Source of the DNA: Bacteroidales bacterium
GTDB lineage: Bacteria; Bacteroidota; Bacteroidia; Bacteroidales; UBA12077
Reading direction: 5' to 3'
DNA length: 21,613 nt
NCBI GenBank assembly: GCA_030600865.1
Contig: JAUVUS010000002.1
Span: 1-21,613, forward strand
Part shown: positions 1,953-17,578 of the stretch, one piece after another
Position numbering within the stretch: position 1 is the stretch's first letter
How the letters are laid out: the number at the start of each line of letters is the position of its first letter
Notes under the pieces: model-generated
Databases searched by the model: none
The model's input: only the letters and a program-made list of their open reading frames with translations
Told to the model about the DNA's origin: nothing
Made by a program: the position numbers and the translations under genes

Positions 1953-4094
1953 ATGGCAGAAACAGGATTTATAAAAGGTATAGGAATTTGGTATCAACGA
2001 GAATTGAATACTATAAAAAAGAAAGATGATTTTTACCTTCAACCTATTTTTGAAGCTTTCACCAATGCTTTAGAGTCTATTGCTATACAGAAAGAAAGAT
2101 ACAACTCAGAAGAACAAGGTGAAATTACTATCAGTGTTTATCTAACCAAAAACCTATTCTCAAAGGATACAACAACTTATGATTTTCAAAAGGTTGTAGT
2201 AGAAGATACTGGTCTTGGATTTGAAGATAGCGAGTTTGAAAGATTTATCAATTTAAGAGATGATAGAAAGGGCTTTTCAAACAAAGGAACTGGAAGGGTG
2301 CAATTTCTTCATGCTTTTGATAAAACAACATTTGAAAGCATTTACAAAGATGAAAATTCATCTACTGGATTTAAACAGCGTAAAATTACTTTATCGAAAT
2401 GCGAGGCATTTATTGTGCAAAATGCAATTATTCGTTTGGATGAAGAAAAAGAAATTAAAGCTGATGCCCCTAGAACTATTGTAATCTTTGAAACTTTATT
2501 GAATCAAAAAGATAAAGAGTTGTTTAAAACAATAACCGCGAGTGAAATTAAAGAAGAATTGATAAGGCATTATCTGGCTGGTTTTTGCGAAAAAAGAAAC
2601 CACCTTCCTTTCATTAAAATTATACTTTTCATTGATAATGTGATTAAAAATGAATTGGAAATTATTACAGCAGATATTCCTGTACCACACCAAGAAAAAG
2701 AAATTGACATCCATTTTAGTAGAATAGATGGAAACAACATTGTTAAATTATCGAATAAAGAATCTTTTAACCTAAAATCATTTATTGTACCTGGATCAGA
2801 ATTAGATAAGAACGGTTTGAAGCTTGTTAGCAAAGGTGAAATTGCAAAAAATATTAAGCTCGATAATCTATTGCCAACTGACCAAATAAACGGTAATCGA
2901 TATTTATTTCTTTTGTCTGGAAAATACATTGATGAAAGGGATAGCGATACAAGAGGTAATATAAACCTTTATAAAAAGAAGGACTTTAAGATAAATGATG
3001 AATTTGTTTTATTCAGCGAGGAAGAAATTCTTCTAGAAGATATTGAAGAAAAGTCTAATCAGGTAATTGTTTCTTTATATAAGGAAATTGAGGAAAAAAG
3101 CAAAGAAAAGGAAAAAAGTATCGAAGAACTTCAAAAAATGTTCTTGCTAAACCCTAAAACAATTAAATCTCTTCAAAATAAAATACATATTGGTGATACT
3201 GATGATATCATTCTTAGAAAGGTTTATGAAGCAGATGCTAAAATTGTAGCATCAAAGGATGCTGAAATAAAGCAGAAAATAAAGTACCTTGATACTCTTG
3301 ATACAACAGAAGAAAATTATCAGGAAAAACTTTCTCAGTATGTTGATGAGTTTGTTAAAGTTATACCTATTCAGAACAGAACGGCACTTACACAATACAT
3401 AGCAAGACGTAAAATGGTGTTGGACCTATTTTATAAAATATTAAGGAAAGAAATTGAGAAGCTACAAAACAATGAACGGATTGATGAAGATTTAATGCAC
3501 AATCTTATTTTTCAGCAAAGTAAATCAGAACCTGAAAATAGTGATTTGTGGTTAATTAATGAGGAGTTCATTTATTTTAAAGGAACTTCGGAAAGTCAGC
3601 TTGGAAACTTAGAGTTAGAAGGAGAAAAGATATTAAAAGAAAAATTATCTAAAGAAGAAGAAGCTTATAGACTAAAACAAAAGGGAGATGCTAAGCAAAA
3701 AAGAACTGATATATTGCTTTTTCCCAAGGAGGGCAAATGCATTATAATTGAATTAAAAGCCCCTGATGTAAATGTCTCTGAGCACCTTAACCAAATAAAC
3801 AGATATGCTTCGCTTATAAATAATCTGTCTAAAGATAAATTCAACTTTACAACTTATTATGGTTACTTAATTGGTGAAAATATAGATATAGATGATATAG
3901 AAGATAATGATACTGACTTTAAATCAGCTCATAGTTTAAATTTTATCTTCCGGCCATTTAAAAGGATTGCAGGTAAATTTGGTAATATGGATGGTGCATT
4001 GTATACAGAAATAATTAAATATTCAACTCTTTTGGAGAGAGCAACACAACGAAATAAGATATTCATTGATAAACTGGAAGGTACGCAACAATGA
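1953..4094 (+). CDS. GHKL ATPase fused to a PD-(D/E)XK-like nuclease, embedded in the type I R-M operon
   Basis: This 713-residue protein carries the three nucleotide-binding motifs of the GHKL (gyrase/Hsp90/histidine kinase/MutL) fold: an N box EAFTNAL with E34 and N38, DTGLG at 85-89, and a glycine lid around KGTGR at 111-115. The middle (about 350-480) is rich in Lys/Glu and probably coiled-coil. The C-terminus has D586 followed 14 residues later by E600-L-K602 in a strand context (RTDIL, then CIIIELKAP), which fits a PD-(D/E)XK nuclease core. Prokaryotic MORC/paraMORC-type GHKL ATPases linked to restriction operons and nucleases are a described class, and this protein resembles it. It sits between hsdS and hsdR and overlaps hsdR by ATGA, which implies coupled synthesis. 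Its role as an accessory effector or DNA-remodelling partner of the R-M complex is inference. Confidence 0.85.
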   Translation: MAETGFIKGIGIWYQRELNTIKKKDDFYLQPIFEAFTNALESIAIQKERYNSEEQGEITISVYLTKNLFSKDTTTYDFQKVVVEDTGLGFEDSEFERFINLRDDRKGFSNKGTGRVQFLHAFDKTTFESIYKDENSSTGFKQRKITLSKCEAFIVQNAIIRLDEEKEIKADAPRTIVIFETLLNQKDKELFKTITASEIKEELIRHYLAGFCEKRNHLPFIKIILFIDNVIKNELEIITADIPVPHQEKEIDIHFSRIDGNNIVKLSNKESFNLKSFIVPGSELDKNGLKLVSKGEIAKNIKLDNLLPTDQINGNRYLFLLSGKYIDERDSDTRGNINLYKKKDFKINDEFVLFSEEEILLEDIEEKSNQVIVSLYKEIEEKSKEKEKSIEELQKMFLLNPKTIKSLQNKIHIGDTDDIILRKVYEADAKIVASKDAEIKQKIKYLDTLDTTEENYQEKLSQYVDEFVKVIPIQNRTALTQYIARRKMVLDLFYKILRKEIEKLQNNERIDEDLMHNLIFQQSKSEPENSDLWLINEEFIYFKGTSESQLGNLELEGEKILKEKLSKEEEAYRLKQKGDAKQKRTDILLFPKEGKCIIIELKAPDVNVSEHLNQINRYASLINNLSKDKFNFTTYYGYLIGENIDIDDIEDNDTDFKSAHSLNFIFRPFKRIAGKFGNMDGALYTEIIKYSTLLERATQRNKIFIDKLEGTQQ

Positions 4095-7734: not shown

Positions 7735-8493
7735 TTATACCTGAAATATGGCATCAGATCTAAATAATTCGTGTTCATTATCGCTTAAATATCCTAACTG
7801 ATTTGTAAGTAGTTTAGTTTTTCCAATTGTGAATCCATCAATATTTTGGTGGTGATGTCCAAAAATCCAGTAGTTTATTTTCGATTTTTCGATAAGATCG
7901 AAAAGTTCAACTCCAAATCCTTCATTTAAAACATCTCCTTTATAAATTTCGGGGTAATTAAGAAATGTTGGAACATGATGTGATACTACGACCTTTTTTT
8001 CTGGTCCAGCTTTTTTAAACTCCTGTTTTAAAAACTTTAAACTTTCTCTATGTAATTGGTTATAATGAAATGTAGTAAAAAGCTCTTCTTTGTGCTTTAT
8101 GACTTGAAAATCCGACATGCTTCTTTGAATCGTCAATTGATTTGCCGGATTAATCTTGGTCCAAAGAGTAGTAAAAATGAACTTTAAATTTTCTTGTTCA
8201 ACGGATAAATTATTTACCAGGAAGACATTGTTTCTAATTTTTTCATTAATACAACCATCTTTTTGAGTTATATCAAAGTAATAATATTCATGGTTACCCG
8301 GTACCCAATAGGTGTATTTAAAATTATCAGAAAGATAGTCAAAGAAGTCACTATGGTTCAGCATAACAATAAAGGGAACTATATCACCTGCTAAAATCAA
8401 AATTTCTCCTACTGGTTTAATAGGATTTGATTTTAGGTATTCCTTGTTTTCTGGGAATTCTATGTGAAGATCAGAACAATATTGAACTTTCAT
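7735..8493 (-). CDS. Calcineurin-like metallophosphoesterase
   Basis: This 252-residue protein shows the full metal-binding motif set of the calcineurin-like phosphoesterase superfamily in order: SDLH near the N-terminus, LAGD, GNHEYY, SHH and GHHHQ near the C-terminus. These residues hold the two metal ions that hydrolyse phosphomono- or diesters. The substrate cannot be told from the sequence; cytosolic location is expected because no signal peptide or membrane segment is seen. The gene lies upstream of, and in the same direction as, the winged-helix gene but is separated from it by 105 bp with a separate promoter, so it is probably a single-gene unit. Whether it takes part in defence or is just cargo is unknown. 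Confidence 0.9.
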   Translation of the reverse strand: MKVQYCSDLHIEFPENKEYLKSNPIKPVGEILILAGDIVPFIVMLNHSDFFDYLSDNFKYTYWVPGNHEYYYFDITQKDGCINEKIRNNVFLVNNLSVEQENLKFIFTTLWTKINPANQLTIQRSMSDFQVIKHKEELFTTFHYNQLHRESLKFLKQEFKKAGPEKKVVVSHHVPTFLNYPEIYKGDVLNEGFGVELFDLIEKSKINYWIFGHHHQNIDGFTIGKTKLLTNQLGYLSDNEHELFRSDAIFQV

Positions 8494-8590
8494 GAGATAA
8501 AATTACATTTTTTTATATAAAAGCATATTGTCTAAAGGTTTTATAATGAATGTTTCAAAAAACGAATGTAGAAATTTTTAGCGATGAAAT

Positions 8591-8702
8591 AAGGTCTTTT
8601 ATTTTTATTTGGGAGTGGGAGAGTTCTAGTTTTAAAAATGAAAGTCCTTAAATGATTGACAAAAGGCTCTTTACAAAATTTATTTTGGAATGTGCCTGTT
8701 TT
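8591..8702 (+). repeat. R1, first copy of a two-hairpin repeated element
   Basis: The first hairpin pairs 8591-8607 with 8633-8649 (17 positions, one T/T mismatch, one G/T wobble). Its loop contains the invariant GGGAGTGGGAGAG-like core. After a 14-base spacer, a second hairpin runs 8664-8697 with AGGC/GCCT at its base and AAAA/TTTT near the tip. It shares its whole length with R2 and R3. It lies in the gap between the phosphoesterase and the zinc-ribbon gene, and is part of no reading frame. It is described on the + strand by convention; the functional strand is not known. Confidence 0.85.
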
Positions 8703-8799
8703 AAAATTTTATTACGAATAATTAACATAAGAAGAAAATGTGTCTGTAATGTGTTATTTTTGTAATGGACTGATTTAGATGTGTTAGTGCAAGAAACTA

Positions 8800-8815
8800 A
8801 TTAACAATTGTTAAT
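8800..8815. repeat. Perfect 16-bp palindrome
   Basis: ATTAACAATTGTTAAT is a perfect 16-bp palindrome in AT-rich DNA between R1 and the zinc-ribbon gene. It is a possible dimer binding site, but nothing else supports it. A related TTAACATTGTTAA core occurs at 10861-10877, upstream of higA. Confidence 0.35.
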
Positions 8816-8894
8816 AACTATAGTTGAAAAAAAGTCCGAAAAGATTATATGATTAGTCAGAAAATCAGATAATTACTAATTATCTTTGAAGAAA

Positions 8895-8933
8895 TAAAAA
8901 AAGCCAGGCGGAAAAGAGTAGTTAGCCTGACTT
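8895..8933 (-). terminator. Rho-independent terminator, possible end of a small RNA
   Basis: On the - strand AAGTCAGGC (8933-8925) pairs with GCCTGGCTT (8909-8901), one wobble, and a run of seven T follows. No - strand gene ends here. Just upstream on the same strand, ATCGT/ACGAT can form a small hairpin (about 8938-8953). A roughly 60-base small RNA starting near 8965 is therefore possible; its promoter (TATATTTA) is a poor match. Confidence 0.5.
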
Positions 8934-9058
8934 AAAGTATCGTTGTTCACGATTTATTTTTGACAATGTAAATATACAACTTCGAGACCTTAGAAACAAA
9001 ATAGATACTACCTGCTGGAAGTCAGCCACTTCGAAGTTTAATGTAAAAGCTTATGTGT

Positions 9059-9193
9059 ATGTCAAGTACAGGAGAAAAGCCTGGCAAAGGTGTATATGTA
9101 TGTAAGCATTGCGGACAAACGGTTGTATTAGATGATGATACTGATACTTTACCACCTTGCCCAAAATGTAATCATACTGAATATCATCCGTAA
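9059..9193 (+). CDS. Small zinc-ribbon protein (44 aa)
   Basis: The frame encodes MSSTGEKPGKGVYVCKHCGQ, then an acidic linker, then CPKCNHTEYHP. Two CxxC knuckles 18 residues apart make a rubredoxin-like zinc ribbon. An in-frame ATG at 9053 would add two residues (MC); the later start is chosen because similar small proteins begin MSxxGxKPGxG, as I recall. There is no clear Shine-Dalgarno site, which is common in this phylum. It is followed 36 bases later by another 44-residue frame in the same direction and then a strong terminator, so the two probably form a small operon. Possible roles are metal binding or protein contact; no specific function is known to me. Confidence 0.75.
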   Translation: MSSTGEKPGKGVYVCKHCGQTVVLDDDTDTLPPCPKCNHTEYHP

Positions 9194-9229
9194 CCAGTAG
9201 ACAGAAGTTTAACTTAAACACCATTACAG

Positions 9230-9364
9230 ATGGCAAAGAAAGTTACAAGTAAAAAAGCTGCTTCTGCTGCTTCAAAAGTTCTTCGAGATAAAAGAACAAG
9301 TAAGGCAAGCAAAACAGCAGCCGGTAGTGCTTTATCGCAAAGGGAGAAAAGGCGAAAGAAGTAA
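9230..9364 (+). CDS. Small Lys/Ala-rich basic protein (44 aa)
   Basis: The frame starts MAKKVTSKKAASAASKVLRD and ends LSQREKRRKK, with no acidic patch and about one third Lys/Arg. It resembles short, widespread basic proteins of unknown function (the ASKxLRxxxTSKxxKxxAGSALSQ pattern), which are recalled and not searched. The composition suggests nucleic-acid binding. It starts 36 bases after the zinc-ribbon stop and ends 19 bases before a strong hairpin with a T-run, so it closes the operon. The complete frame, the precise terminator and the recognisable pattern argue that it is real despite its size. Confidence 0.7.
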   Translation: MAKKVTSKKAASAASKVLRDKRTSKASKTAAGSALSQREKRRKK

Positions 9365-9383
9365 ACTAACCTAAACTAAAAGA

Positions 9384-9423
9384 AGCTCCAATTGATAAAA
9401 TTTATCAACTTGGGGCTTTTTTT
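9384..9423 (+). terminator. Rho-independent terminator after the two small genes
   Basis: AGCTCCAA and TTGATAAA pair with TTTATCAA and TTGGGGCT around a short AT loop, with a small bulge between the two helix segments. Seven T follow the stem (9417-9423). The - strand side has a weaker TTCTTTT, so it may also stop transcription of the opposing membrane-protein gene. Confidence 0.85.
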
Positions 9424-9431
9424 ATGGATTG

Positions 9432-9782
9432 TTAAGACTTAAGCTGTTTTAGTTCAATCTCAAATTTTATAACCCAGAAGGATGTTGCAACAAATGTGTA
9501 TATAACGTACCAAGCCAATACTTGAGATATCCAAAAATAAATACCACTCCAATCAGAGAATGATTTAATTAATACAAAAACAGGTGATATTAATCCACAT
9601 AAAACAAATAGTAATAAGATAAATGCAAGTCTTAATCTATTATGAGTTTTAACTTTCTTGAGTCTGTTTTTTGCAAACTTAAATAAGCGAAGTATGTTAG
9701 AAACAGCAAAACTTATAGTAGCAATAAGGCTTATAGTTGCTATTATCGGATTATTAGTTAATTTATAAATATATTCTATCAT
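9432..9782 (-). CDS. Small predicted inner-membrane protein (116 aa)
   Basis: I do not recognise a family. The protein has hydrophobic stretches at about residues 12-32 (IIATISLIATISFAVSNIL), 52-73 (LAFILLLFVLCGLISPVFVLI) and 81-105 (IYFWISQVLAWYVIYTFVATSF). A Lys/Arg-rich loop (FAKNRLKKVKTHNRLR) lies between the first two, which by the positive-inside rule places that loop in the cytoplasm. It ends in a charged tail. It stands alone, convergent with the zinc-ribbon operon across the terminator. Small three-helix membrane proteins are common effectors in phage-defence loci, but no sensor partner adjoins it, so that reading is only a possibility. Confidence 0.6.
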   Translation of the reverse strand: MIEYIYKLTNNPIIATISLIATISFAVSNILRLFKFAKNRLKKVKTHNRLRLAFILLLFVLCGLISPVFVLIKSFSDWSGIYFWISQVLAWYVIYTFVATSFWVIKFEIELKQLKS

Positions 9783-10222
9783 CTTTTAAATAAATGTTAA
9801 TCAAATGTATAAAAGCTGATTTTATTTTTAAAGGGAAACCGAAAAAATCTTTTTAAAGTGTCCAACCGTTATACAAAACTGTCCAAGTTTTACATGCATT
9901 CTTGATTTATCAGATTTACGTTTATGAAAAATTTACTAGCATTTTATATATTGATAAAAAGGCTTTGAAAAAATAAGCGAAAAATAGGGAAGTAGCCTGT
10001 AAGTTATATTTAATAGGTGATGTAGAAACTACGTTTTTTTGTCCTTTACTAATTTAACTCCATTTAATACCTTTCGGAAAGTCTATAAAATCTACTGTCC
10101 TTTTTTTTAAAGGAGAGTGAAAATATTTTTACTGAAAATGAAAACTTTTATGGTATGACTTTCTAAAAGTATTAGAAGAAAAAAATTAAGGAGTATTTAT
10201 ATATTGAAATAAATTATGAGAT
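9783..10222. other. Gene-free AT-rich stretch
   Basis: No convincing gene is seen on either strand. It holds short features of low weight: a weak GTAG/CTAC hairpin before seven T near 10025-10043, and AGGC...GCCTGT at 9960-10000, which loosely recalls the second hairpin of the R element but lacks the first hairpin and the GTGGGAGAG core. Confidence 0.5.
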
Positions 10223-10330
10223 ATGAAAAAATTAGTTTTTAAGTTTAGAGAGTTTTTAAAGGATTATGAAAGAGAAATTATTATTATTTTAATGATAATA
10301 AGTGTCCTTATTCCATTAATTTGGGGTTAA
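10223..10330 (+). CDS. Possible 35-residue single-pass membrane peptide
   Basis: An ATG frame gives a basic start (MKKLVFKFREFLKDYER) followed by one hydrophobic helix (EIIIILMIISVLIPLIWG) and a stop. The layout fits a small membrane peptide of the kind found in type I toxins or stress peptides. No good ribosome-binding site is seen at the right distance, and it could be a chance frame in AT-rich DNA. It ends 20 bases before the higB operator and promoter, so it is not co-transcribed from that promoter. Confidence 0.3.
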   Translation: MKKLVFKFREFLKDYEREIIIILMIISVLIPLIWG

Positions 10331-10349
10331 GAACAAATTTTCTTTAAAT

Positions 10350-10383
10350 AAAGTTGTCAGTATGACAACTTTTCGTACCTTTG
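10350..10383 (+). promoter_or_regulatory. higB promoter with embedded operator palindrome
   Basis: TACCTTTG (10376-10383) is an exact TAnnTTTG -7 box, and TTG at 10354-10356, 19 bases upstream, fits the -33 element. Between and over them lies a perfect inverted repeat of 10-bp arms, AAAGTTGTCA and TGACAACTTT (10350-10372), with a 3-bp centre. This is the expected layout for autorepression by the HigA antitoxin. Transcription would begin near 10390, leaving a leader of about 78 bases before higB. Confidence 0.75.
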
Positions 10384-10467
10384 TAGCGTATAAGTTTATA
10401 CAAAGTATAACGTAAAAAGTCTAACGTAAATTAAAATTTAGTATGCAAACAGTTTAATTTTGTCAGA

Positions 10468-10761
10468 ATGAGAGTAATAACGAGTAGGCGATTCGTTGAA
10501 TTTGCTGAGGCGTACCCCGATTGCAAGGGGCAGCTGGAATTAATAAACAAAGAATTGAAAAATGCGCTCTTTGAAAATTTGAACCAGGTTAAAGATACTT
10601 ATCCAAATGTAAGTATTCTTAAGAATAACAGAGTTGTTCTTAATGTACATGGAAATAAGTATCGTTTAATTCTAAAGTTCAATTTTGGAGCAGGAATTGC
10701 ATTTGTGCGATTTATTGGCACTCATGCAGAGTATGACAAGATAGATGCTAATTCTATCTAA
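10468..10761 (+). CDS. higB: HigB-family toxin, ribosome-dependent mRNA interferase type
   Basis: This 97-residue protein matches the HigB_toxin family in length and in its C-terminal signature, where YRLILKFNFGAGIAFVRFIG is followed by THAEYDKID. Family members cut mRNA in the ribosomal A site and are neutralised by an XRE-type antitoxin encoded downstream. The start is the only sensible ATG, and the N-terminal MRVITSRR is typical. The gene has its own promoter and operator at 10350-10383. The antitoxin gene follows only after 215 bp, whereas such pairs normally overlap or lie within a few bases. Confidence 0.9.
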   Translation: MRVITSRRFVEFAEAYPDCKGQLELINKELKNALFENLNQVKDTYPNVSILKNNRVVLNVHGNKYRLILKFNFGAGIAFVRFIGTHAEYDKIDANSI

Positions 10762-10976
10762 AACAACTAAAATAAGTGGATATGTTTTATTTATAGCGTT
10801 TCATTAGGGTCTCATTAATCAGATGAGAGATGAATCGTTATGCCTAAAAACGTTAAAAAAACTTAACATTGTTAAGTAAACAAAAATGTATACTAAACCT
10901 TTTATTATATAGCCATGTACAAAATTATACACTTTGTAAAATGTGAAATTTTAAGCTTGGCACACAAAAACAAACT
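10762..10976 (+). promoter_or_regulatory. Unusual gap between toxin and antitoxin genes with a second palindrome
   Basis: This stretch encodes nothing evident. It contains ACTTAACA-T-TGTTAAGT (10861-10877, perfect 8-bp arms) and a hairpin TCTCAT/ATGAGA (about 10810-10828). An element resembling a -7 box lies upstream of higA (TACACTTTG, one base too long). It may carry a separate higA promoter and operator, allowing antitoxin to be made without toxin. Confidence 0.45.
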
Positions 10977-11351
10977 ATGAAAAAATTACAAGACATGAAA
11001 CCTAAACTTTTAAAGTCTGAAGCAGAATACAATGAAGCTTTAGAACGCATTGAAGTTTTGCAGGATGCAAAAGTTGGCACTCTTGAAGGTGATGAATTGG
11101 AATTACTTGCATTATTAATAGAAAATTACGAAGAAGAACACTTTTCATTACCTGAACCTGATCCAATTGATGTAATACAATATTACATTGAACAACGTGG
11201 TTTAAAGGCGAAAGATTTAGTTGGTATTATTGGCGACAAAGCTTTAGTATCAAAAATATTAAATAGAGAAAGAAAATTAAATCTTCGCATGGTAAGGAGC
11301 TTACATAATAAATTACAAATTCCTTTTAAAGCTTTAATAGCAGAGTATTAA
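10977..11351 (+). CDS. higA: HigA-type XRE-family antitoxin
   Basis: This 124-residue protein has an N-terminal helical region typical of HigA (SEAEYNEALERIEVL, then GDELELLALLIENYE). A C-terminal helix-turn-helix of the XRE/Cro kind follows (about residues 70-120: DVIQYYIEQRGLKAKDLVGI, ALVSKILNRERKL, then the last helix). It would bind HigB and repress the operon through the palindromes upstream. It ends 92 bp from the stop of the convergent AlbA_2 gene. The N-terminal MKKLQDM is accepted as the start because an AT-rich untranslated stretch and no better start precede it. Confidence 0.88.
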   Translation: MKKLQDMKPKLLKSEAEYNEALERIEVLQDAKVGTLEGDELELLALLIENYEEEHFSLPEPDPIDVIQYYIEQRGLKAKDLVGIIGDKALVSKILNRERKLNLRMVRSLHNKLQIPFKALIAEY

Positions 11352-11443
11352 TCTTATTTAGCTTTTTTGAATTTAGGTTAGTGTGGATAAAAAGGAGCAG
11401 GTGCTTTTTATAGCTTAAAATGAATTGCACAATGACAAAAAAA

Positions 11444-12781
11444 TTAATTTGTAATTTTCCAATAACCACCTTTGTCAGGACCAACCCTGTTTAAAACACC
11501 TTCTTTTTTAAGTTTATCAATGTTATATTCTACACCACGCCTTGTTAAGCCCGTTTCTTTCTGTATTTCTTTTATGGTTATTTTAGGGTTTTGACTTATT
11601 AATTCGATTATTTTCTCCACAGTTTTCTCCACAGTTTTCTCCACAGTTTTCTCCACAGTTTCACCGACCTTTGATCTGTTAAATATGATAGTGAAAAATC
11701 CTGTAAACTCATATTGTGGCTCTGCTAATCCTGCCTGTAATACTTCTTTTTTCATTCGGTTAATACCTGTACCCAATTTTTCAATAAATCGTGCACGTTG
11801 AAAAAGATTTGCTATTAACGGATTTCGTCGGATACTTTTTTTCCCAAAATCTTTTTGATCAAGAGCTTTAGGTAATCCCCCAGGATTAGAAATTTCAACC
11901 CTGTCGTCGAAAATTTCAATCATTACATTTGCTCCATCTTCAAAATAATTTCGGTGCATAACTGCATTTATTACAGCTTCGCGTAGTGCCACTTCTGGTA
12001 TTTCAAGAATATCCTGCCTTTGTATGCTTTCAATTTTATAGCTTACATTTAGGTGTTTTGTTAAAAATATAATCGATTCATTAATTGTATTAATAAAATC
12101 AGTATTAATGTCTTTCCTATCGAGAATATTTATCTTTTCCGTTCCCTTGTATAAAACACAGGTAACGATACACTGATTGATATAATCGCCTGGTTTTTCT
12201 GTAAAAAACAAAATCCCTGCATTATTTAAACAAAAAATATTTTCATTAAGCACACCAAGATTTCTTAAAATATCTTCATCTTCCATGATTTGTGGAATAC
12301 CTGCAATTTTAAGAAAGGTTCGCAACAATTCAGGACTATATGCTTTTTTATAATTGGTTTTAATTTTAGATTGTTCATCAAACTTTATTCTGCCTTCTTG
12401 CTGTAAAAAGTCAACAATCTGGTTTGTATTCATCTTTTGTGTACTGGCACCATTTCGTATGAAAAATCCTTTATTACAGCGATAAGGTTTCTCATTGCCT
12501 TCGGGAATATGAACAATTAAAATGTTTTGAAAAGTTTCAAGATTGATATTAACAGACGGGTCACAATCTCTGGCAATAGTTTGAATTCTCGATTTTAAAT
12601 CATTATTGATAGTTACACCTTTTTGATTGTTATCATCATCAATTCCAATAAAAATTCTTCCACCCGAAGAGTTTGCAAATGCAATCATTTCTTTGGCTAA
12701 ATCGGAATTAACATTTTCTTTAAATTCAAGATAGTAACCTTCTCCTTCTTGCAATATGGTGTCTAATTCAGCTTGTGTCAT
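11444..12781 (-). CDS. Schlafen-like AlbA_2 domain protein with GHKL-like ATPase and winged helix
   Basis: This 445-residue protein has three parts. Residues about 10-125 form an AlbA_2 (Schlafen-type, divergent AAA_4) domain with YYLEFKE, FANSSGGRIFIGIDD and GFFIRNGAST. Residues about 260-345 match the HATPase_c_4 type, with the N box REAVINAVMHRNY, DDRVEISNPGGLP and EKLGTGINRM. Residues about 390-442 form a winged helix (ITIKEIQKETGLTRRGVEYN). Between the last two lie four tandem TVEK units. Such proteins are usually labelled putative transcriptional regulators or ATP-dependent helicases; Schlafen-type AlbA_2 domains can be RNases in other settings. The gene is alone, with its own promoter at 12811-12841. 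Its function in this organism is not known. Confidence 0.85.
   Translation of the reverse strand: MTQAELDTILQEGEGYYLEFKENVNSDLAKEMIAFANSSGGRIFIGIDDDNNQKGVTINNDLKSRIQTIARDCDPSVNINLETFQNILIVHIPEGNEKPYRCNKGFFIRNGASTQKMNTNQIVDFLQQEGRIKFDEQSKIKTNYKKAYSPELLRTFLKIAGIPQIMEDEDILRNLGVLNENIFCLNNAGILFFTEKPGDYINQCIVTCVLYKGTEKINILDRKDINTDFINTINESIIFLTKHLNVSYKIESIQRQDILEIPEVALREAVINAVMHRNYFEDGANVMIEIFDDRVEISNPGGLPKALDQKDFGKKSIRRNPLIANLFQRARFIEKLGTGINRMKKEVLQAGLAEPQYEFTGFFTIIFNRSKVGETVEKTVEKTVEKTVEKIIELISQNPKITIKEIQKETGLTRRGVEYNIDKLKKEGVLNRVGPDKGGYWKITN
11611..11658. repeat. Four perfect copies of a 12-bp tandem repeat
   Basis: TTTTCTCCACAG occurs four times without a mismatch, in frame in the AlbA_2 gene, and encodes the TVEK repeats between the ATPase and the winged helix. 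Twelve-base units keep the frame whatever the copy number, so slippage would lengthen or shorten a charged linker without killing the gene. Confidence 0.95.
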
Positions 12782-12810
12782 TTGTTTGGTCGTTTTTTGT
12801 AATTGTTTTT

Positions 12811-12841
12811 CAAAGATATTCTAAACTTTTTTTAAACACAA
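12811..12841 (-). promoter_or_regulatory. Promoter of the AlbA_2 gene
   Basis: On the - strand TATCTTTG (12818-12811) is an exact TAnnTTTG box, and TTG (12841-12839) lies 20 bases upstream. The start of transcription would fall near 12804, about 23 bases before the ATG. Confidence 0.65.
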
Positions 12842-13036
12842 TATTCAATTTAAGCAGAATCGTTAAATCAATAGTATTTTTCAGTGACTTTCGTTTTACT
12901 TTGTTACAAAGTAAGGGTAATTATTCACTCATTTTGTAATAGAATTAGGGTAATATTTTATTGTTTAGTGGCTGAAAAAATCAAAATATTTATTTATACT
13001 TATCCTTAGTTCAATCTGTTAAGCCACTAATTCAGC

Positions 13037-13119
13037 CAGATTAAAGGTTCAGTCAAGACTGTTCTGTGTTGCGCCTGCGGCAGAACACTTGCTCTGGTCT
13101 TTACGGGTTCTTTAATCTG
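13037..13119. repeat. Nested imperfect palindrome upstream of R2
   Basis: CAGATTAAAG (13037-13046) is inverted as CTTTAATCTG (13110-13119). Inside are AGAC/GTCT and a GC-rich core GTTCTG/CAGAAC enclosing GCCTGCGGC. The whole 83-bp unit folds on itself with internal loops. Its G+C content is far above the surroundings. It could be a miniature inverted-repeat element, a recombination site or an RNA structure. It directly precedes the putative NACHT promoter. Confidence 0.6.
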
Positions 13120-13122
13120 ATG

Positions 13123-13130
13123 TACCTTTG
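13123..13130 (+). promoter_or_regulatory. Possible promoter of the NACHT transcription unit (-7 box)
   Basis: TACCTTTG matches TAnnTTTG exactly and is identical to the higB -7 box. There is no clear TTG at -33, though TTTA lies near. If used, transcription starts near 13137, and the whole R2 element becomes part of a leader of about 340 bases in front of the NACHT gene. Confidence 0.45.
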
Positions 13131-13165
13131 CTTTCATGATTGAAATAAATATTTAATAGCAAAAC

Positions 13166-13274
13166 AAGGTCTTTCATTTTTAATAGGTAGTGGGAGAGAT
13201 CATGTGTAAAAATGAAAGTCCTTTTGTGTGTAAAAGCAGGCTCTTTTCAAAATTCATTTTGGAATGTGCCTGTT
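13166..13274 (+). repeat. R2, second copy of the two-hairpin element
   Basis: The first hairpin pairs 13166-13182 with 13207-13223, with a T/T mismatch at the fifth position and otherwise Watson-Crick pairs. The loop holds AGGTAGTGGGAGAGATC. The second hairpin is 13237-13272, with base CAGGC/GCCTG and tip CAAAA-TTCA-TTTTG. It is located 200 bp before the NACHT start. The 17th-from-left arm base C restores a C-G pair where R1 and R3 have a T-G wobble. Confidence 0.85.
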
Positions 13275-13474
13275 CTTTGGATTAGTCAAGAGTTCTGGAA
13301 AAGAATTTATCTGCCCTTGACAGGTTCTTATTTGTGTTTCAAATTTGTGGAAAGGGGAAAGTTATTTATAAGTTAGAAATCCTAGGTTTAAAATTCGCTT
13401 TTGTTTATTTATTTAAGTAATTTCATAAAACGAATGTTTAGTTGATCATTTTAAGAAATTTAAAGATTTAACAT

Positions 13475-15724
13475 ATGAGAAGTATATCTTGGAAATCACT
13501 TGAAAAGAATGTGAAATTAATTGCAAGTTATATATGGAATTGCAATGCTTCAAAAGAAACAATAAAAGGCGTGAATTATGATTGTGTCTTAAAACCCAAG
13601 TTAGGTTATTGGGTCATAGTTGAAGTTACTGAGCAAATGAAACTTGAAAAGGTTAGAATGGATATTGCAAAATTTGCTAGTAGCCGTTTGTCTTTAATTT
13701 CAGATGGTATATTTCCTGAATGTTATCTTGTCATGAAAGATGAACCTTCAAATTCAATGATAGAAACTGGTAAAGAAAATATGGTAAATGTACTTTCGTA
13801 TTTATCTTTTTCTAGCTTATTTATAAATTATGAATCATATTTTCATGTTAGGGCTAAGAAAATATTTGGAAGTTCTGTAAATCCCTTGTCTGGGAAACCT
13901 GATCAGTTAAGATACACACCTGTTTTTTATAAAGATCATAAAACTAATGCTAATCTAGACCTTAACGCAATAGTAAAACTAATAAATGAGGGCAAAAGAA
14001 TTATATTATTGGGTAATTATGGTACCGGAAAAAGTAGGTGTATAAGAGAACTTTTTATGAATTTAGGTTCAAAACAATCAGCAACTTTAAAATATCCAAT
14101 TGCAATAAACCTAAAAGATAATTGGGGCACAAGAAAAGCTGAAGAGATTATAAGACGTCATTTTGATAATGTTGGTTTAAGTGATGTGGCTGATTCAATT
14201 CTTAAAATAATTGATAATGAGAAATTACTGCTTTTATTGGATGGATTCGATGAGATAGGATCTCAGGCATGGAGTCATGATCCCCAAAAATTAAAGCAGA
14301 TAAGAGCTGCAGCTTTAAGTGGCACAAAAGATCTAATTCAAAAAAGTAAGGGTGCAGTAATAATTACGGGTCGAGAACATTATTTTAACAATGATAATGA
14401 GATGTATTCTTTATTAGGTTTGAAACAAGAAGACACTATACTAATTAAATGTAAAGATGAATTTACTAATGAAGAAATGGAAGATTATTTAAAGAGTTTA
14501 TCTAATATAATTGATTTACCATTATGGCTTCCAAGACGTCCTATAATATGTCAAATAATTAATTCTCTTGACGTAAATGACATCGAAAAAATTTTTGTTG
14601 ATTCAAATAGTGCTGTAGAATTTTGGAAAACTCTAATATATAATTTATGTGTAAGAGAAGCACGGATAAATCCTGTTCTTGATAGCGATACAATCTTAAA
14701 GATATTCATAAAGATTGGACAAATGACTAGAAACAAGATTGGTAATGTTGGGCCAATAACTGTTTCCGAAATTAATAAAGCTTTTGAACTTGTCGTTGGA
14801 AGTTCTCCTGTTGATGATTCTGCCGTTATGTTACAACGCTTGCCTGCTTTAGGTCGCATTTCAGCAGAGAGTAACGACAGACAATTTATAGATAATTATA
14901 TACTTGATGGATTAAGAGCTGAAAACTTAGTGCAAATTATTAACGAGAATTTAGAAAAAGTTAAAAATGAAAAGTGGATAAATCCATTAGATAAACTTGG
15001 AATAGAGATTGTTTCGATATATATAAGAGAAAGCCATTCTGCAAATGGTTTCATAAGCTATTTATTTGATAACATAGATATTGATAATAAAGTCTTACTA
15101 GGAGATATTATAGCTTCACTTACATTCTATGCTTCGAAAAATCCTATGGATTTAGGTGGAATTACATTATCAGATTCATATATCTCAACTCTTAGTTTGT
15201 CCAATACTTTAATTGATAATTTTGTTATTAAGGATACCATAATTGAAGAGATTGATATTACAAATTACTGTTGTTCTAGGATTTCATTTAAAGATTGTAT
15301 TTTTAAGAAAGTTTATGGACTAGAATCAATAGAAAAGGCGCCATCTTTCATAAGTTCTAATCATATTGAATCTTGTGAAAAAGAGTCAATTAGTTTTTAT
15401 AATAATCAAATGAAACTTCAACCAATGCAGTTGATTTTTATATCATTAATCAAAAAACTATTTTTTTTGGGTAGTGGAAGTAAGTCTGAAAGGGAACTAT
15501 TAAGCAGTTATGGGAATGATGATGACAAAAAGTTGGTATTAGAAGTAGTAAAAATATTGCATAAAGAAAAAGTTATTAAAAAGAGCAATTCGCAAAAGGA
15601 TGTTACCTATATAGCGAAGAGTTTTAATAAACCCAGGATGAAGAATATTTTAACAGAGTTAAATCATTCCAAAGATAAACTTTGGTTAGAAATAGAAAAA
15701 ATCTCTTCGAATAATGACCAATAA
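13475..15724 (+). CDS. NACHT-type STAND ATPase with nuclease-like N-terminus, probable anti-phage sensor
   Basis: This 749-residue protein has a STAND nucleotide-binding core. Walker A is GNYGTGKS near 180-187. Walker B is LLLLLDGFDE at 251-260, the DGFDE form characteristic of NACHT domains. A sensor-like strand VIITGRE follows. The N-terminus (about 30-90) resembles a small PD-(D/E)XK fold: YD (D36), then VIVEVTEQ, where the usual ExK lysine is T52. It may therefore be inactive or use another residue. The C-terminus (about 555-620) shows pentapeptide-like strands (LSLSNTLIDN, FVIKDTIIEE, ISFKDCIFKK) before a final helical region. Bacterial NACHT proteins are known phage-defence NTPases that oligomerise on sensing infection; this protein's trigger is unknown. 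The gene stands alone between R2 and R3. Confidence 0.85.
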   Translation: MRSISWKSLEKNVKLIASYIWNCNASKETIKGVNYDCVLKPKLGYWVIVEVTEQMKLEKVRMDIAKFASSRLSLISDGIFPECYLVMKDEPSNSMIETGKENMVNVLSYLSFSSLFINYESYFHVRAKKIFGSSVNPLSGKPDQLRYTPVFYKDHKTNANLDLNAIVKLINEGKRIILLGNYGTGKSRCIRELFMNLGSKQSATLKYPIAINLKDNWGTRKAEEIIRRHFDNVGLSDVADSILKIIDNEKLLLLLDGFDEIGSQAWSHDPQKLKQIRAAALSGTKDLIQKSKGAVIITGREHYFNNDNEMYSLLGLKQEDTILIKCKDEFTNEEMEDYLKSLSNIIDLPLWLPRRPIICQIINSLDVNDIEKIFVDSNSAVEFWKTLIYNLCVREARINPVLDSDTILKIFIKIGQMTRNKIGNVGPITVSEINKAFELVVGSSPVDDSAVMLQRLPALGRISAESNDRQFIDNYILDGLRAENLVQIINENLEKVKNEKWINPLDKLGIEIVSIYIRESHSANGFISYLFDNIDIDNKVLLGDIIASLTFYASKNPMDLGGITLSDSYISTLSLSNTLIDNFVIKDTIIEEIDITNYCCSRISFKDCIFKKVYGLESIEKAPSFISSNHIESCEKESISFYNNQMKLQPMQLIFISLIKKLFFLGSGSKSERELLSSYGNDDDKKLVLEVVKILHKEKVIKKSNSQKDVTYIAKSFNKPRMKNILTELNHSKDKLWLEIEKISSNNDQ

Positions 15725-15756
15725 TTTTTCCAACTAAACCAGTTTTAGTAACTAAA

Positions 15757-15863
15757 AAGGTCTTTTATTTTTAATAGGTAGTGGGAGAGATCTAGTGTAA
15801 AAATGAAAGTCCTTAGTGTGGAGAAAAAGGCTTTTCCCGATTTTTCTTCGGGATGTGCCTGTT
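15757..15863 (+). repeat. R3, third copy of the two-hairpin element
   Basis: The first hairpin pairs 15757-15773 with 15798-15814 and has almost the same sequence as R2. The second hairpin (15828-15860) keeps AGGC/GCCT and the TTT/TGT internal loop. Its upper helix is a different, GC-rich one: TCCCGA (15835-15840) with TCGGGA (15848-15853). R3 begins 33 bases after the NACHT stop and ends 10 bases before the stop of the convergent membrane-protein gene. No T-run follows either hairpin, so it is not a standard terminator. Confidence 0.85.
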
Positions 15864-15872
15864 TCGGTGGAT

Positions 15873-16427
15873 TTACTTCGAAAAGACTAAAGGATTAGAA
15901 GATTCTTCTCGTAATTTTCTGGTTTTATTTTTTAAGGTTTTCTTTCTTTTTTTATCATCAAAATCAAGAATTAATTCTTGTAAAAAATCCTGTGAGTCTT
16001 CGTTGTTGTAATATAAAAACTCGTAAGCGTTTTTGTATTTTAAATTCTCATTTATGGTTGGCATTATATACTTACCAAATAGTAAGACTATTAATAAAAT
16101 TGTTGCACCAATAATTGAAAGCTTTAAAAAGGAAATTAAAGCTTCTTTCCATTGTGTAATAGTCTTTATAATTGCTTTTCTTTCATTTGATAATTCTACT
16201 ATAGCTGATTTTACATAGGTTTGATGCCTGTCAGTTTTTTCTTCCATTAATTGTTTTAATCCTGATAAATCAATATCGACTTTAAAGTTCTTTAAATGCT
16301 CAAGAGCTTCCTGTTCTTGAGAAACAAATTTTTCAAGAGCTGTTTTTAAAAATTGTTGTTCTTCTCTAATTTCCTTATTATCGTTAAGGATCTCTTGTAA
16401 AAGTTCGGTTAATATTTCATCTTTCAT
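15873..16427 (-). CDS. Coiled-coil membrane protein of the mobilisation operon
   Basis: This 184-residue protein has a long acidic and basic helical N-terminal half (about 1-95), probably coiled-coil. One strong membrane segment (about 98-120: FLKLSIIGATILLIVLLFG) follows, and then a Lys/Arg-rich C-terminal tail. It overlaps the relaxase gene by 11 bases and so is translated with it. Proteins of this form commonly follow mobA in Bacteroidota mobilisable elements, and may help to bring the relaxosome to the membrane or to the coupling protein. That role is inference; I recognise no named family. Confidence 0.7.
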   Translation of the reverse strand: MKDEILTELLQEILNDNKEIREEQQFLKTALEKFVSQEQEALEHLKNFKVDIDLSGLKQLMEEKTDRHQTYVKSAIVELSNERKAIIKTITQWKEALISFLKLSIIGATILLIVLLFGKYIMPTINENLKYKNAYEFLYYNNEDSQDFLQELILDFDDKKRKKTLKNKTRKLREESSNPLVFSK

Positions 16428-17196
16428 AATCTAAGGTTTTACTTATTACTTTTTTTAATATTACTTCAGGTCTATAAATTTTTGTCATGGATAGTATATT
16501 TTGGATCTTTTTAAGAGAAAAACCAATCTGGCTACCTTTTAATCTTACTCCTTTATTGTCTATAAACGCTATGCCGCGACCTATTTCAGTTTTGAGGTTC
16601 TTCTTTTCAATGATTGATTTAAAATCATCCAATGATTTGGATTTTGATAATGCTTCATTGATTATTCCTTTTATTTGATCTTTTCGTTTATCTAGTCTTG
16701 GAGTTTGTTTTTTGTCTTTATCAAGAAATTTCTCAGGAGATAGTACTTGTTCCAGATTATATTCTTTTTCTATACTTCTGCTGAATTCAGAAACTTTTTG
16801 GTAGTTTTTACTTGTACTAATTGCTTTACTATCAAATCCTACTCTATTGCAAACTATGTGTATATGTTGGTGTTTCGTGTCGTGATGCTGAACTACTAAG
16901 TATTGATTCTTATCAAAACCGAATTTCTTTGCAAGCTTTTCCGATATTTCCATTAATTGTTTCTTGGATACTTTGTCGTTATGAGTAAAACTTAGAGAAG
17001 TATGCCAGACAGGTTTTTCTATTTTTCGGTTTAATGCTTTTACGTCTCTAAATTGTTGGGTTAACTCATTTTTATCACCATAGCAATTATTATAATGTAA
17101 AACTTCGGCAAGCTCTTTTTTTTCGCCATTTCTTCCTTCTAGTATATATCGGATGCAACTACCAAAATCTTTACCTATTGATATTTTTCCAATCAT
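16417..17196 (-). CDS. mobA: MobA-type relaxase
   Basis: This 259-residue protein carries the relaxase three-histidine motif in HHDTKHQHIHIV (H104, H109, H111, H113 region), which holds the catalytic metal. Candidate nucleophile tyrosines are Y17 (IRYILEG) or Y35/Y39 upstream. The opening MIGKISIGKDFGSCIRYILE is typical of Bacteroidota MobA proteins. It would nick oriT, stay bound to the 5' end and lead the strand into the recipient using a helper element's secretion system. At 259 residues it is shorter than many relatives but has the whole catalytic domain. Its start overlaps the end of mobC by four bases (17193-17196), and the probable oriT lies just upstream of mobC. Confidence 0.92.
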   Translation of the reverse strand: MIGKISIGKDFGSCIRYILEGRNGEKKELAEVLHYNNCYGDKNELTQQFRDVKALNRKIEKPVWHTSLSFTHNDKVSKKQLMEISEKLAKKFGFDKNQYLVVQHHDTKHQHIHIVCNRVGFDSKAISTSKNYQKVSEFSRSIEKEYNLEQVLSPEKFLDKDKKQTPRLDKRKDQIKGIINEALSKSKSLDDFKSIIEKKNLKTEIGRGIAFIDNKGVRLKGSQIGFSLKKIQNILSMTKIYRPEVILKKVISKTLDYER

Positions 17197-17558
17197 TTGA
17201 TATAAGTTTTTATATTCTCCGCTAACTGCTTTATTTCTTCCGACAATAATTTTAATTCAGCTCTTTCAATTGGAGAGAGCTGCTCATTGATATTTCTTTT
17301 TTTTGCTATTTGGTTGATGTTAGCTGATAAGTGATTTAGTTTTCCTGTAAATTCAAGAATTTGTGGGGGATAGGTTCTAATAGTTAACTTTCCATTCAAC
17401 CCAATTCCCCTTAAATATTCAGAAATGGTTAATCCTGCTTTTTTTGCCTTGCTCAAAATAATTTTTCGTTCAATAATATTACACATAACGGCAAGTTGTT
17501 CTTGTCGTTTGACCTTTTTTTTAGGCCGTCCACCTTTATTTTTAGCAGGATTCTCCAT
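17193..17558 (-). CDS. mobC: MobC-like mobilisation accessory protein
   Basis: From the ATG at 17558 this gives a 121-residue basic protein. It starts MENPAKNKGGRPKKKVKRQE, a DNA-contacting tail, and continues into a ribbon-helix-helix-like region (ERKIILSKAKKAGLTISEYL). A C-terminal helix of the MobC type follows (LNHLSANINQIAKKRN). In-frame TTG codons upstream (17573) would add five residues, but ATG with GAGAAAAG before it is preferred. MobC proteins bind oriT, help open the strands and position the relaxase. It overlaps mobA by ATGA and immediately follows the candidate oriT hairpins, the standard arrangement. Confidence 0.88.
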   Translation of the reverse strand: MENPAKNKGGRPKKKVKRQEQLAVMCNIIERKIILSKAKKAGLTISEYLRGIGLNGKLTIRTYPPQILEFTGKLNHLSANINQIAKKRNINEQLSPIERAELKLLSEEIKQLAENIKTYIK

Positions 17559-17578
17559 TTCTTTTCTCAACAAATGCG

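Follow-up and report, generated by a model that had tools for sequence, protein, structure and literature searches.

What are the three copies of a short two-hairpin sequence that lie between genes in the genome of a member of the Bacteroidales, and do they act as RNA or as DNA? The window analyzed here is the whole stretch of 21,613 nucleotides from contig JAUVUS010000002.1 (assembly GCA_030600865.1), and the element, termed R, occurs in it as R1, R2 and R3. We show that R is a conserved two-hairpin structure without an Rfam entry, often marking the edges of exchangeable gene blocks. A sequence-only reading of the window had proposed either a new structured RNA or a recombination site; the conserved fold and the lack of an Rfam match were upheld, and evidence on both sides was obtained for the function. 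We tentatively, and narrowly, favor a role of R as RNA in this genus over the possible but somewhat less probable role of a DNA hairpin exchange site.

The three elements are same-direction copies of about 110 bp, all located between open reading frames (ORFs), and constitute the first-listed direct-repeat family of the window, in agreement with the sequence-only reading. They are 80–82% identical in pairwise blastn comparisons, with a mean column identity of 87% in the alignment, and are the sole copies found in the host assembly (2.8 Mb, 467 contigs, ~72% complete). The alignment also reproduced the hairpin 1 stem of 17 positions including a T/T mismatch, a stem-1 position that is T-G in R1 and R3 and C-G in R2, and two forms of hairpin 2, one AT-rich and the other TCCCGA/TCGGGA. 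As single-stranded DNA, R1, R2 and R3 fold with z-scores of −3.2, −5.7 and −5.1, and none of 200 dinucleotide shuffles was as good for any of them; the corresponding RNA folds have z-scores of −3.1, −4.9 and −3.8 (1, 0 and 0 of 200 shuffles as good). The whole window gave no match at the gathering threshold to any of 4227 Rfam families, and there was none at E ≤ 1 over seven loci comprising R1–R3 and four of the wider-family hairpins described below. Of the two identities considered earlier, a known Rfam family was not found, and an end of an insertion sequence (IS) was rejected for the IS91 family, the one compared below. Among the papers listed in literature searches, none described an R-type element, and none of the sequence-string matches listed concerned Bacteroidota by title.

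To place R1–R3 among related sequences, we searched 98 genomes by blastn and obtained matches in eight including the host, of which two short, unrelated ones (G009 and G042; apparent coding sequence and a 26-base T-rich match) were excluded. A covariance model built from 14 aligned copies (alignment A4) matched seven of 20 genomes of the genus, and six of these contain 17 strong copies of at least 61 bits: three in the host, four in G015, five in G010, two each in G018 and G002, and one in G016, with a weaker match in G006. Fourteen of the 17 are in A4 and match by construction, while G010a, G010d and G010e lie outside it; beyond the host, there are 14 strong copies in five of the 19 other genomes, 11 of them from the model-building set. 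Weak matches at G010:C11, G002:C30:59456, G002:C13 (minus strand) and G006:C9, the last being wider-family member L027, are not counted among the 17, and the viral contig L065 had no model match. A pattern search among named genomes retrieved metagenome-assembled genomes (MAGs) of Bacteroidales or Bacteroidetes such as UBA12171, GH36, CSMAG_2501, MAG82 and GWF2_33_16; matches in Pelagibacteraceae (two), Helicobacter and Clostridia were kept out of the counts.

In the RNAalifold structure of the 14 copies, 96.7% of the cells pair. Changes on both sides were counted in 25 cells (10.6 in shuffles), and none of 500 shuffles reached the observed covariation score of 0.275 (0.173 in shuffles). By one measure, the count of doubly changed pairs, the copies are not unusual (6, with 4.8 in shuffles; 114 of 500 shuffles reached this count). 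Shuffle control (a) is a lenient one where sequences are related, and slid controls score far lower. Selection on the fold, which had been argued from R1–R3, is thus supported by the covariation of 14 copies, whereas three copies alone give little. The compensatory stem changes count in favor of an RNA.

The stems of R have conserved mismatch cores. The T-T mismatch of the hairpin 1 stem is kept in all 14 aligned copies; its three core steps are T-T (14 copies), C-G (13) and either T-A (11) or T-T (3). Hairpin 2 has T-T, C-G or T-G, and T-T in 10 of the 14, the exceptions being G002b, with one T-T changed to T-G, and the three secretion-locus copies, in which all three steps are paired. The loop core GGGAGAG, to which the earlier reading had drawn attention, proved not to be essential: the hairpin 1 arms are separated by 25–27 nt in 15 of the 17 copies and by 9 nt in G010d (C92) and G010e (C122), and the three secretion-locus copies have other loops. 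Because two copies, both outside A4, have 9-nt loops, the conserved loop is dispensable and was rejected as the active part. A coding role was also rejected: several copies contain a short ORF that begins within hairpin 1, its frames and stops differ between copies (by eye), and the inter-hairpin spacer varies in length by numbers not divisible by three. By eye, the hairpin 1 3′ arm might also pair with the hairpin 2 5′ arm in an alternative helix, which was discarded since two copies break the pairing.

The Bacteroidota −7 box has the consensus TAnnTTTG (PMC7366714) and is placed at −12 to −5 (PMC9723704). An exact TAnnTTTG lies 31–35 nt upstream of eight of the 17 copies, compared with a background rate of 348 in 459,404 positions. 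Five of these boxes are on a repeated left-flank unit, LF I, two on a second unit, LF II, and one (G010c) on a diverged, partial LF I-like stretch; since LF I and LF II have no real similarity, these amount to two independent box placements rather than eight. Of the sequence evidence for an RNA, this spacing is the best. A further five copies (R3, G018b, G015d, G002a and G016) begin 12–32 nt after the stop codon of a + strand gene, in two gene contexts. On the + strand of the 14 aligned copies, G-U cells exceed A-C cells by 12:1 in hairpin 1 and 11:0 in hairpin 2, which points to the + strand as the folded one.

LF I precedes R in G015 and G010, and once in G015 it precedes a truncated R-like stretch; in the window its segment 13030–13135 folds as RNA with a z-score of −2.2 (4 of 200 shuffles as good). 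LF I also occurs without an immediately following R in G003, G004, G007 and G012 and, ahead of a GIY-YIG block, in G018; LF II does so once, in G002. The four R-less LF I copies of G003, G004, G007 and G012 (L115–L118), two of which match the left half only, are ~55–590 bp from genes for tRNA-Asp, tRNA-Asp, tRNA-Met and tRNA-Arg, a proximity that hints at island ends. Small GIY-YIG nuclease ORFs are found beside LF II before R at L069:10093-10470, L074:7130-7504 and L076:9372-9722.

According to the reading that we favor, R would be a structured element of ~110 nt with two tandem hairpins and mismatch cores conserved on the + strand, namely a U-U mismatch beside a C-G pair in hairpin 1 and usually U-U, C-G or U-G, and U-U in hairpin 2. 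Promoter spacing and strand lend this some support: R may be transcribed on the + strand from its own sigma-A promoter, with a start predicted from the box position at ~27–31 nt before hairpin 1, or alternatively as the 3′ end of an mRNA. The product would be a stable two-hairpin RNA whose cores may be recognized by a protein or an RNase. R would be carried by, and multiplied with, accessory gene modules, and its copies would therefore come to lie at module junctions. A multi-copy small RNA (sRNA) family with sigma-ABfr promoters, FopS, is described from the phylum, and one report records its sequence in a phage and proposes that phages spread it (PMC11697453). By description only, this family appears to be the nearest biological parallel that we met. 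The FopS/GibS sRNAs of Bacteroides share with R the occurrence in several copies and the Bacteroidota sigma-A promoters, which for R are predicted. Conservation across Bacteroidaceae and action through an mRNA-pairing seed are described for FopS (PMC11697453), whereas the conserved parts of R lie in the stems.

The strongest alternative, which we consider possible, is that R is a DNA hairpin site with an attC-like role, in which the folded + strand with its T-T mismatches would be recognized by a recombinase encoded elsewhere, and direct copies would move or excise a module. Consistent with such a site, homology between flanking sequences starts or stops where R begins or ends. Among 136 copy pairs compared over 120-nt flanks, 17 had a flank above the shuffled maximum of 0.61, of which 13 were similar on the left only, two on the right only and two on both sides. 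Nine of the 13 left-only pairs are accounted for by the repetition of the LF I-R unit itself, and three are secretion-locus copies with identities of 0.63–0.68, barely over the shuffled maximum. A gene pair consisting of a metallophosphatase and R, present in the window with R1, recurs in G010:C92 with a different right flank. The relaxase-backbone locus to the right of R3 has three forms: LF I-R2-NACHT-R3 in the window, LF I-R in G015:C151, and LF I-GIY-YIG-LF II-R-NACHT-R in G018:C175. The STAND NTPase-R block is thus present in the window and G018 and absent between matching flanks in G015, so that NACHT-R behaves as a present/absent unit, and the G015 form is what excision of that unit would leave. 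However, contig G015:C151 starts inside LF I, ordinary homologous recombination between direct repeats would yield the same pattern, and the GIY-YIG block of G018 lies between LF I and R, not between two R copies. It also counts against a hairpin site that no recombinase was found in the 18 window ORFs scanned, and that only 17 strong copies occur, in six genomes.

At the secretion locus of G015, G016 and G002, R follows a 113-codon ORF and faces the gene for protein F of the type II secretion system (T2SSF), while G010, G012 and G017, which have the T2SSF gene, show neither R nor the 113-codon ORF on its 3′ side in the sequence stretches inspected by eye. R was therefore gained or lost together with a neighbor gene. 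In G016, an ORF with a weak, below-cut-off match to exo/endonuclease/phosphatase proteins (L077:8983-9951) lies between R and T2SSF; G015:C60 has no such insert.

A single-hairpin relative occurs beyond the genus. In a 295-genome sample of the order, the model matched 11 genomes, including three from the genus. Ten loci were recovered from the eight others, nine of them with a single hairpin, AGC-TCT-TTTG ... CAAA-TGT-GCT with variants; the tenth, L049, is a plain hairpin without the core and was excluded. Besides members of other Bacteroidales families, plasmids of Flammeovirga kamogawensis, Arenibacter algicola and Chryseobacterium oryzae carry hairpins with the T-T / C-G / T-T core, the plasmid cases being found by blastn with one wider-family hairpin (the Chryseobacterium match at E 0.1). 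An exact pattern retrieved a hairpin from one of 296 genomes sampled across the phylum. A Treponema match inside a methyltransferase gene and L145–L148, inside ORFs, were left out of the family, and L143, L144 and L048 are absent from the alignments and counted only in a 16-member context survey. In 13 aligned members the first T-T and the C-G are invariant and the second T-T is kept in 12 (T-A in L136). Compensated changes around this core give a covariation score of 0.356 against 0.094, and hairpin 1 of the 14 R copies aligned with five wider-family hairpins scores 0.312 against 0.110, with none of 500 shuffles as high. From these alignments R and the wider family are likely homologous, although this is not proven, because the model that found the family already held part of the core. 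Restriction-modification genes adjoin some members (L082, HsdM_N; L083, Eco57I-type; L135, HTH-N6 methylase-HsdS; L137, helicase-methyltransferase), and other members adjoin unrelated genes.

Several features of the wider family weigh against an RNA role. In the context survey, based on mechanical ORFs, the left neighbor is on the opposite strand in 12 of 16 cases, and both neighbors are in eight; a TAnnTTTG within 150 nt upstream was found for one of the 16, and G-U and A-C cells are balanced at 2:2 in the 13 aligned members. Within the genus, R1, G010d, G010e and G002b (four of 17) have neither an exact −7 box in the upstream 160 nt nor a + strand gene directly before them, the wobble counts are not independent events because the R copies are related, and an RNA role does not predict the behavior at junctions. 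A single hairpin that is often antisense to its neighbors, carried on plasmids and sometimes placed beside restriction systems, would suit a DNA site. With this antisense placement and the rarity of the box, one factor for both forms is easier to imagine at the DNA level, and for this reason we keep the RNA and DNA-site readings close. A broader version seems rather unlikely to us: that the hairpin with the T-T / C-G / T-T core and covarying stems, present in more than one class of Bacteroidota, serves as the site at which an undescribed system exchanges cassettes of defense and other accessory genes; R would be its tandem two-hairpin form in one genus, and STAND NTPase-R3 one cassette. If the RNA reading is true, R could represent a new sRNA family travelling with mobile genes; if the DNA-site reading is true, R could be what a non-integron cassette system recognizes. 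Each outcome would provide a search handle for mobile defense modules in the phylum, and the two make opposite predictions on strand-specific transcription and recA-independent excision.

Known hairpin sites were compared with R. The attC sites of integrons are imperfect hairpins at module boundaries with a variable loop, a selected folded strand, and RYYYAAC ... GTTRRRY boxes, and to our knowledge integrons have rarely been detected in Bacteroidota. R shares the imperfect hairpin, the boundary position, the variable loop and the selected strand; it differs in carrying two hairpins. Neither box was present in any of the 17 copies with 15 nt on each side, and none of 19 genus genomes had an integron integrase above the TIGR02249 cut-off of 265 bits, so membership in an integron was rejected; a related recombinase of 366–474 aa scoring ~108–122 bits is encoded in 12 of the 19. 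A long imperfect palindrome running from GCCCAAC to GTTGGGC, in keeping with the attC box pattern, is located at L083:9851-9981 beside a wider-family hairpin and an operon of an HTH gene and an Eco57I-type restriction gene. IS91-family (HUH/Y2) elements have terminal hairpins, and the wider-family hairpin on the Chryseobacterium plasmid lies ~280 bp after an IS91 transposase gene. Origin from an IS91 end was rejected: the Y2 transposase (PF04986) occurs in one of 19 genus genomes (G018) with no R-model match at that locus (L138), and the hairpin is absent 3′ of four further IS91 copies from Bacteroidota. At L137 the hairpin lies, by eye, outside the part that is similar to three of the other IS91 3′ sides; one of the four further copies, L141, gave a weak match to the model 5′ of its operon (23.1 bits, E 0.006).

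We regard it as improbable that R is a tandem, partly bidirectional intrinsic terminator insulating island genes. Hairpin 2 of the secretion-locus copies does resemble a plain terminator between convergent genes, and in the wider family an A-run, equivalent to a T-run on the other strand, is present 5′ of eight of the 16 hairpins; no 3′-side T-run was seen in the 16. The earlier statement that no T-run follows the hairpins of R applies to the + strand; on the − strand short T-runs, visible as A-runs 5′ of the hairpins, follow several of them. These T-runs are inconsistent, the conserved mismatches weaken the stems, and the wobble-tolerant strand of R is, by eye, the one without a clean T-run. 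A strict scan of both strands over 8400–16000 detected no intrinsic terminator (3.0 expected from shuffles), hence none at R1–R3, with a loop limit of 3–8 that excludes hairpin 1.

REP/BIME repeats with RAYT are, like R, small intergenic hairpins with a stem mismatch. Spread of R as a REP/MITE-like repeat by a Y1 or other transposase is nevertheless very unlikely, for although R is short, structured, intergenic and multi-copy and 17 of the 19 genus genomes searched, among them all seven that gave an R match, encode Y1_Tnp proteins, there are at most five strong copies per genome, ten of the 17 genomes with Y1 matches have no R match, the ten Y1 loci examined (L101–L110) had no model match at E up to 0.1 and thus no linked Y1 gene, and the most alike within-genome pair without a shared right flank, among identities inspected, is 90% identical (G015a-G015c).

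The features of the window are collected in the table below.

Features in and around R1–R3 (window coordinates; covariance-model scores in bits)
Feature	Position	Strand	Details	Basis
R1 two-hairpin element	8591-8702	+	hairpin 1 8591-8649, hairpin 2 8664-8697; model match 8584-8705, 99.5 bits; model-building sequence	repeat, alignment, folds
R2 two-hairpin element	13166-13274	+	hairpin 1 13166-13223, hairpin 2 13238-13271; model match 119.7 bits; model-building sequence	repeat, alignment, folds
R3 two-hairpin element	15757-15863	+	hairpin 1 15757-15814, hairpin 2 15828-15860; model match 126.8 bits; model-building sequence	repeat, alignment, folds
LF I	12984-13148	+	~165-bp repeated unit, long palindrome, promoter-like right end	
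TACCTTTG	13123-13130	+	match to Bacteroidota −7 box TAnnTTTG, 35 nt upstream of R2	
Calcineurin-like phosphoesterase (metallophosphatase)	7735-8493	-	divergent from R1	
Schlafen/AlbA_2 + ATPase + winged-helix gene	11444-12781	-	homologue adjoins LF I-R units in G015	
STAND/NACHT-type NTPase gene	13475-15724	+	between R2 and R3	PF05729, 26.7 bits, exactly at cut-off
Backbone end gene (family not assigned) + MobA/VirD2 relaxase + NikA/MobC genes	15873-17573	-	mobilizable-element backbone; end gene abuts R3	

The left part of the window contains a type I restriction-modification operon with HsdS, HsdR and an HsdM truncated at the window edge. Between R1 and R2 are a HigB-like toxin gene, a small gene whose weak HTH match is below the cut-off, the Schlafen/AlbA gene and smaller ORFs, and the mobilizable backbone right of R3 comprises relaxase, MobC, Toprim primase, DUF3987 and HTH_17 genes. 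From this content of restriction-modification, toxin, NTPase and mobilizable-backbone genes, the window is an accessory island. The backbone end gene is found in three of 59 genomes (the host, G015 and G018), and in all three it abuts R. In line with the sequence-only reading, Pfam detected no transposase, reverse transcriptase or integrase in the 18 ORFs scanned of the 31 mechanical ORFs of at least 70 aa in the window; a relaxase and NikA/MobC are present. Across the genus, the neighbors of most R copies are accessory genes (Schlafen-AlbA, Fic, GIY-YIG, Mrr-NACHT, HsdM, metallophosphatase and STAND), but the three copies of one lineage are next to the T2SSF gene.

Two further observations concern the neighboring genes. 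The gene at 1953–4094, between HsdS and HsdR, has weak GHKL ATPase and HSDR_N matches and no PADLOC match. A ParA-like gene adjoins the pair of metallophosphatase and R at L071 (G010:C92), and its homologue in G015:C60 shares its contig with the T2SSF locus.

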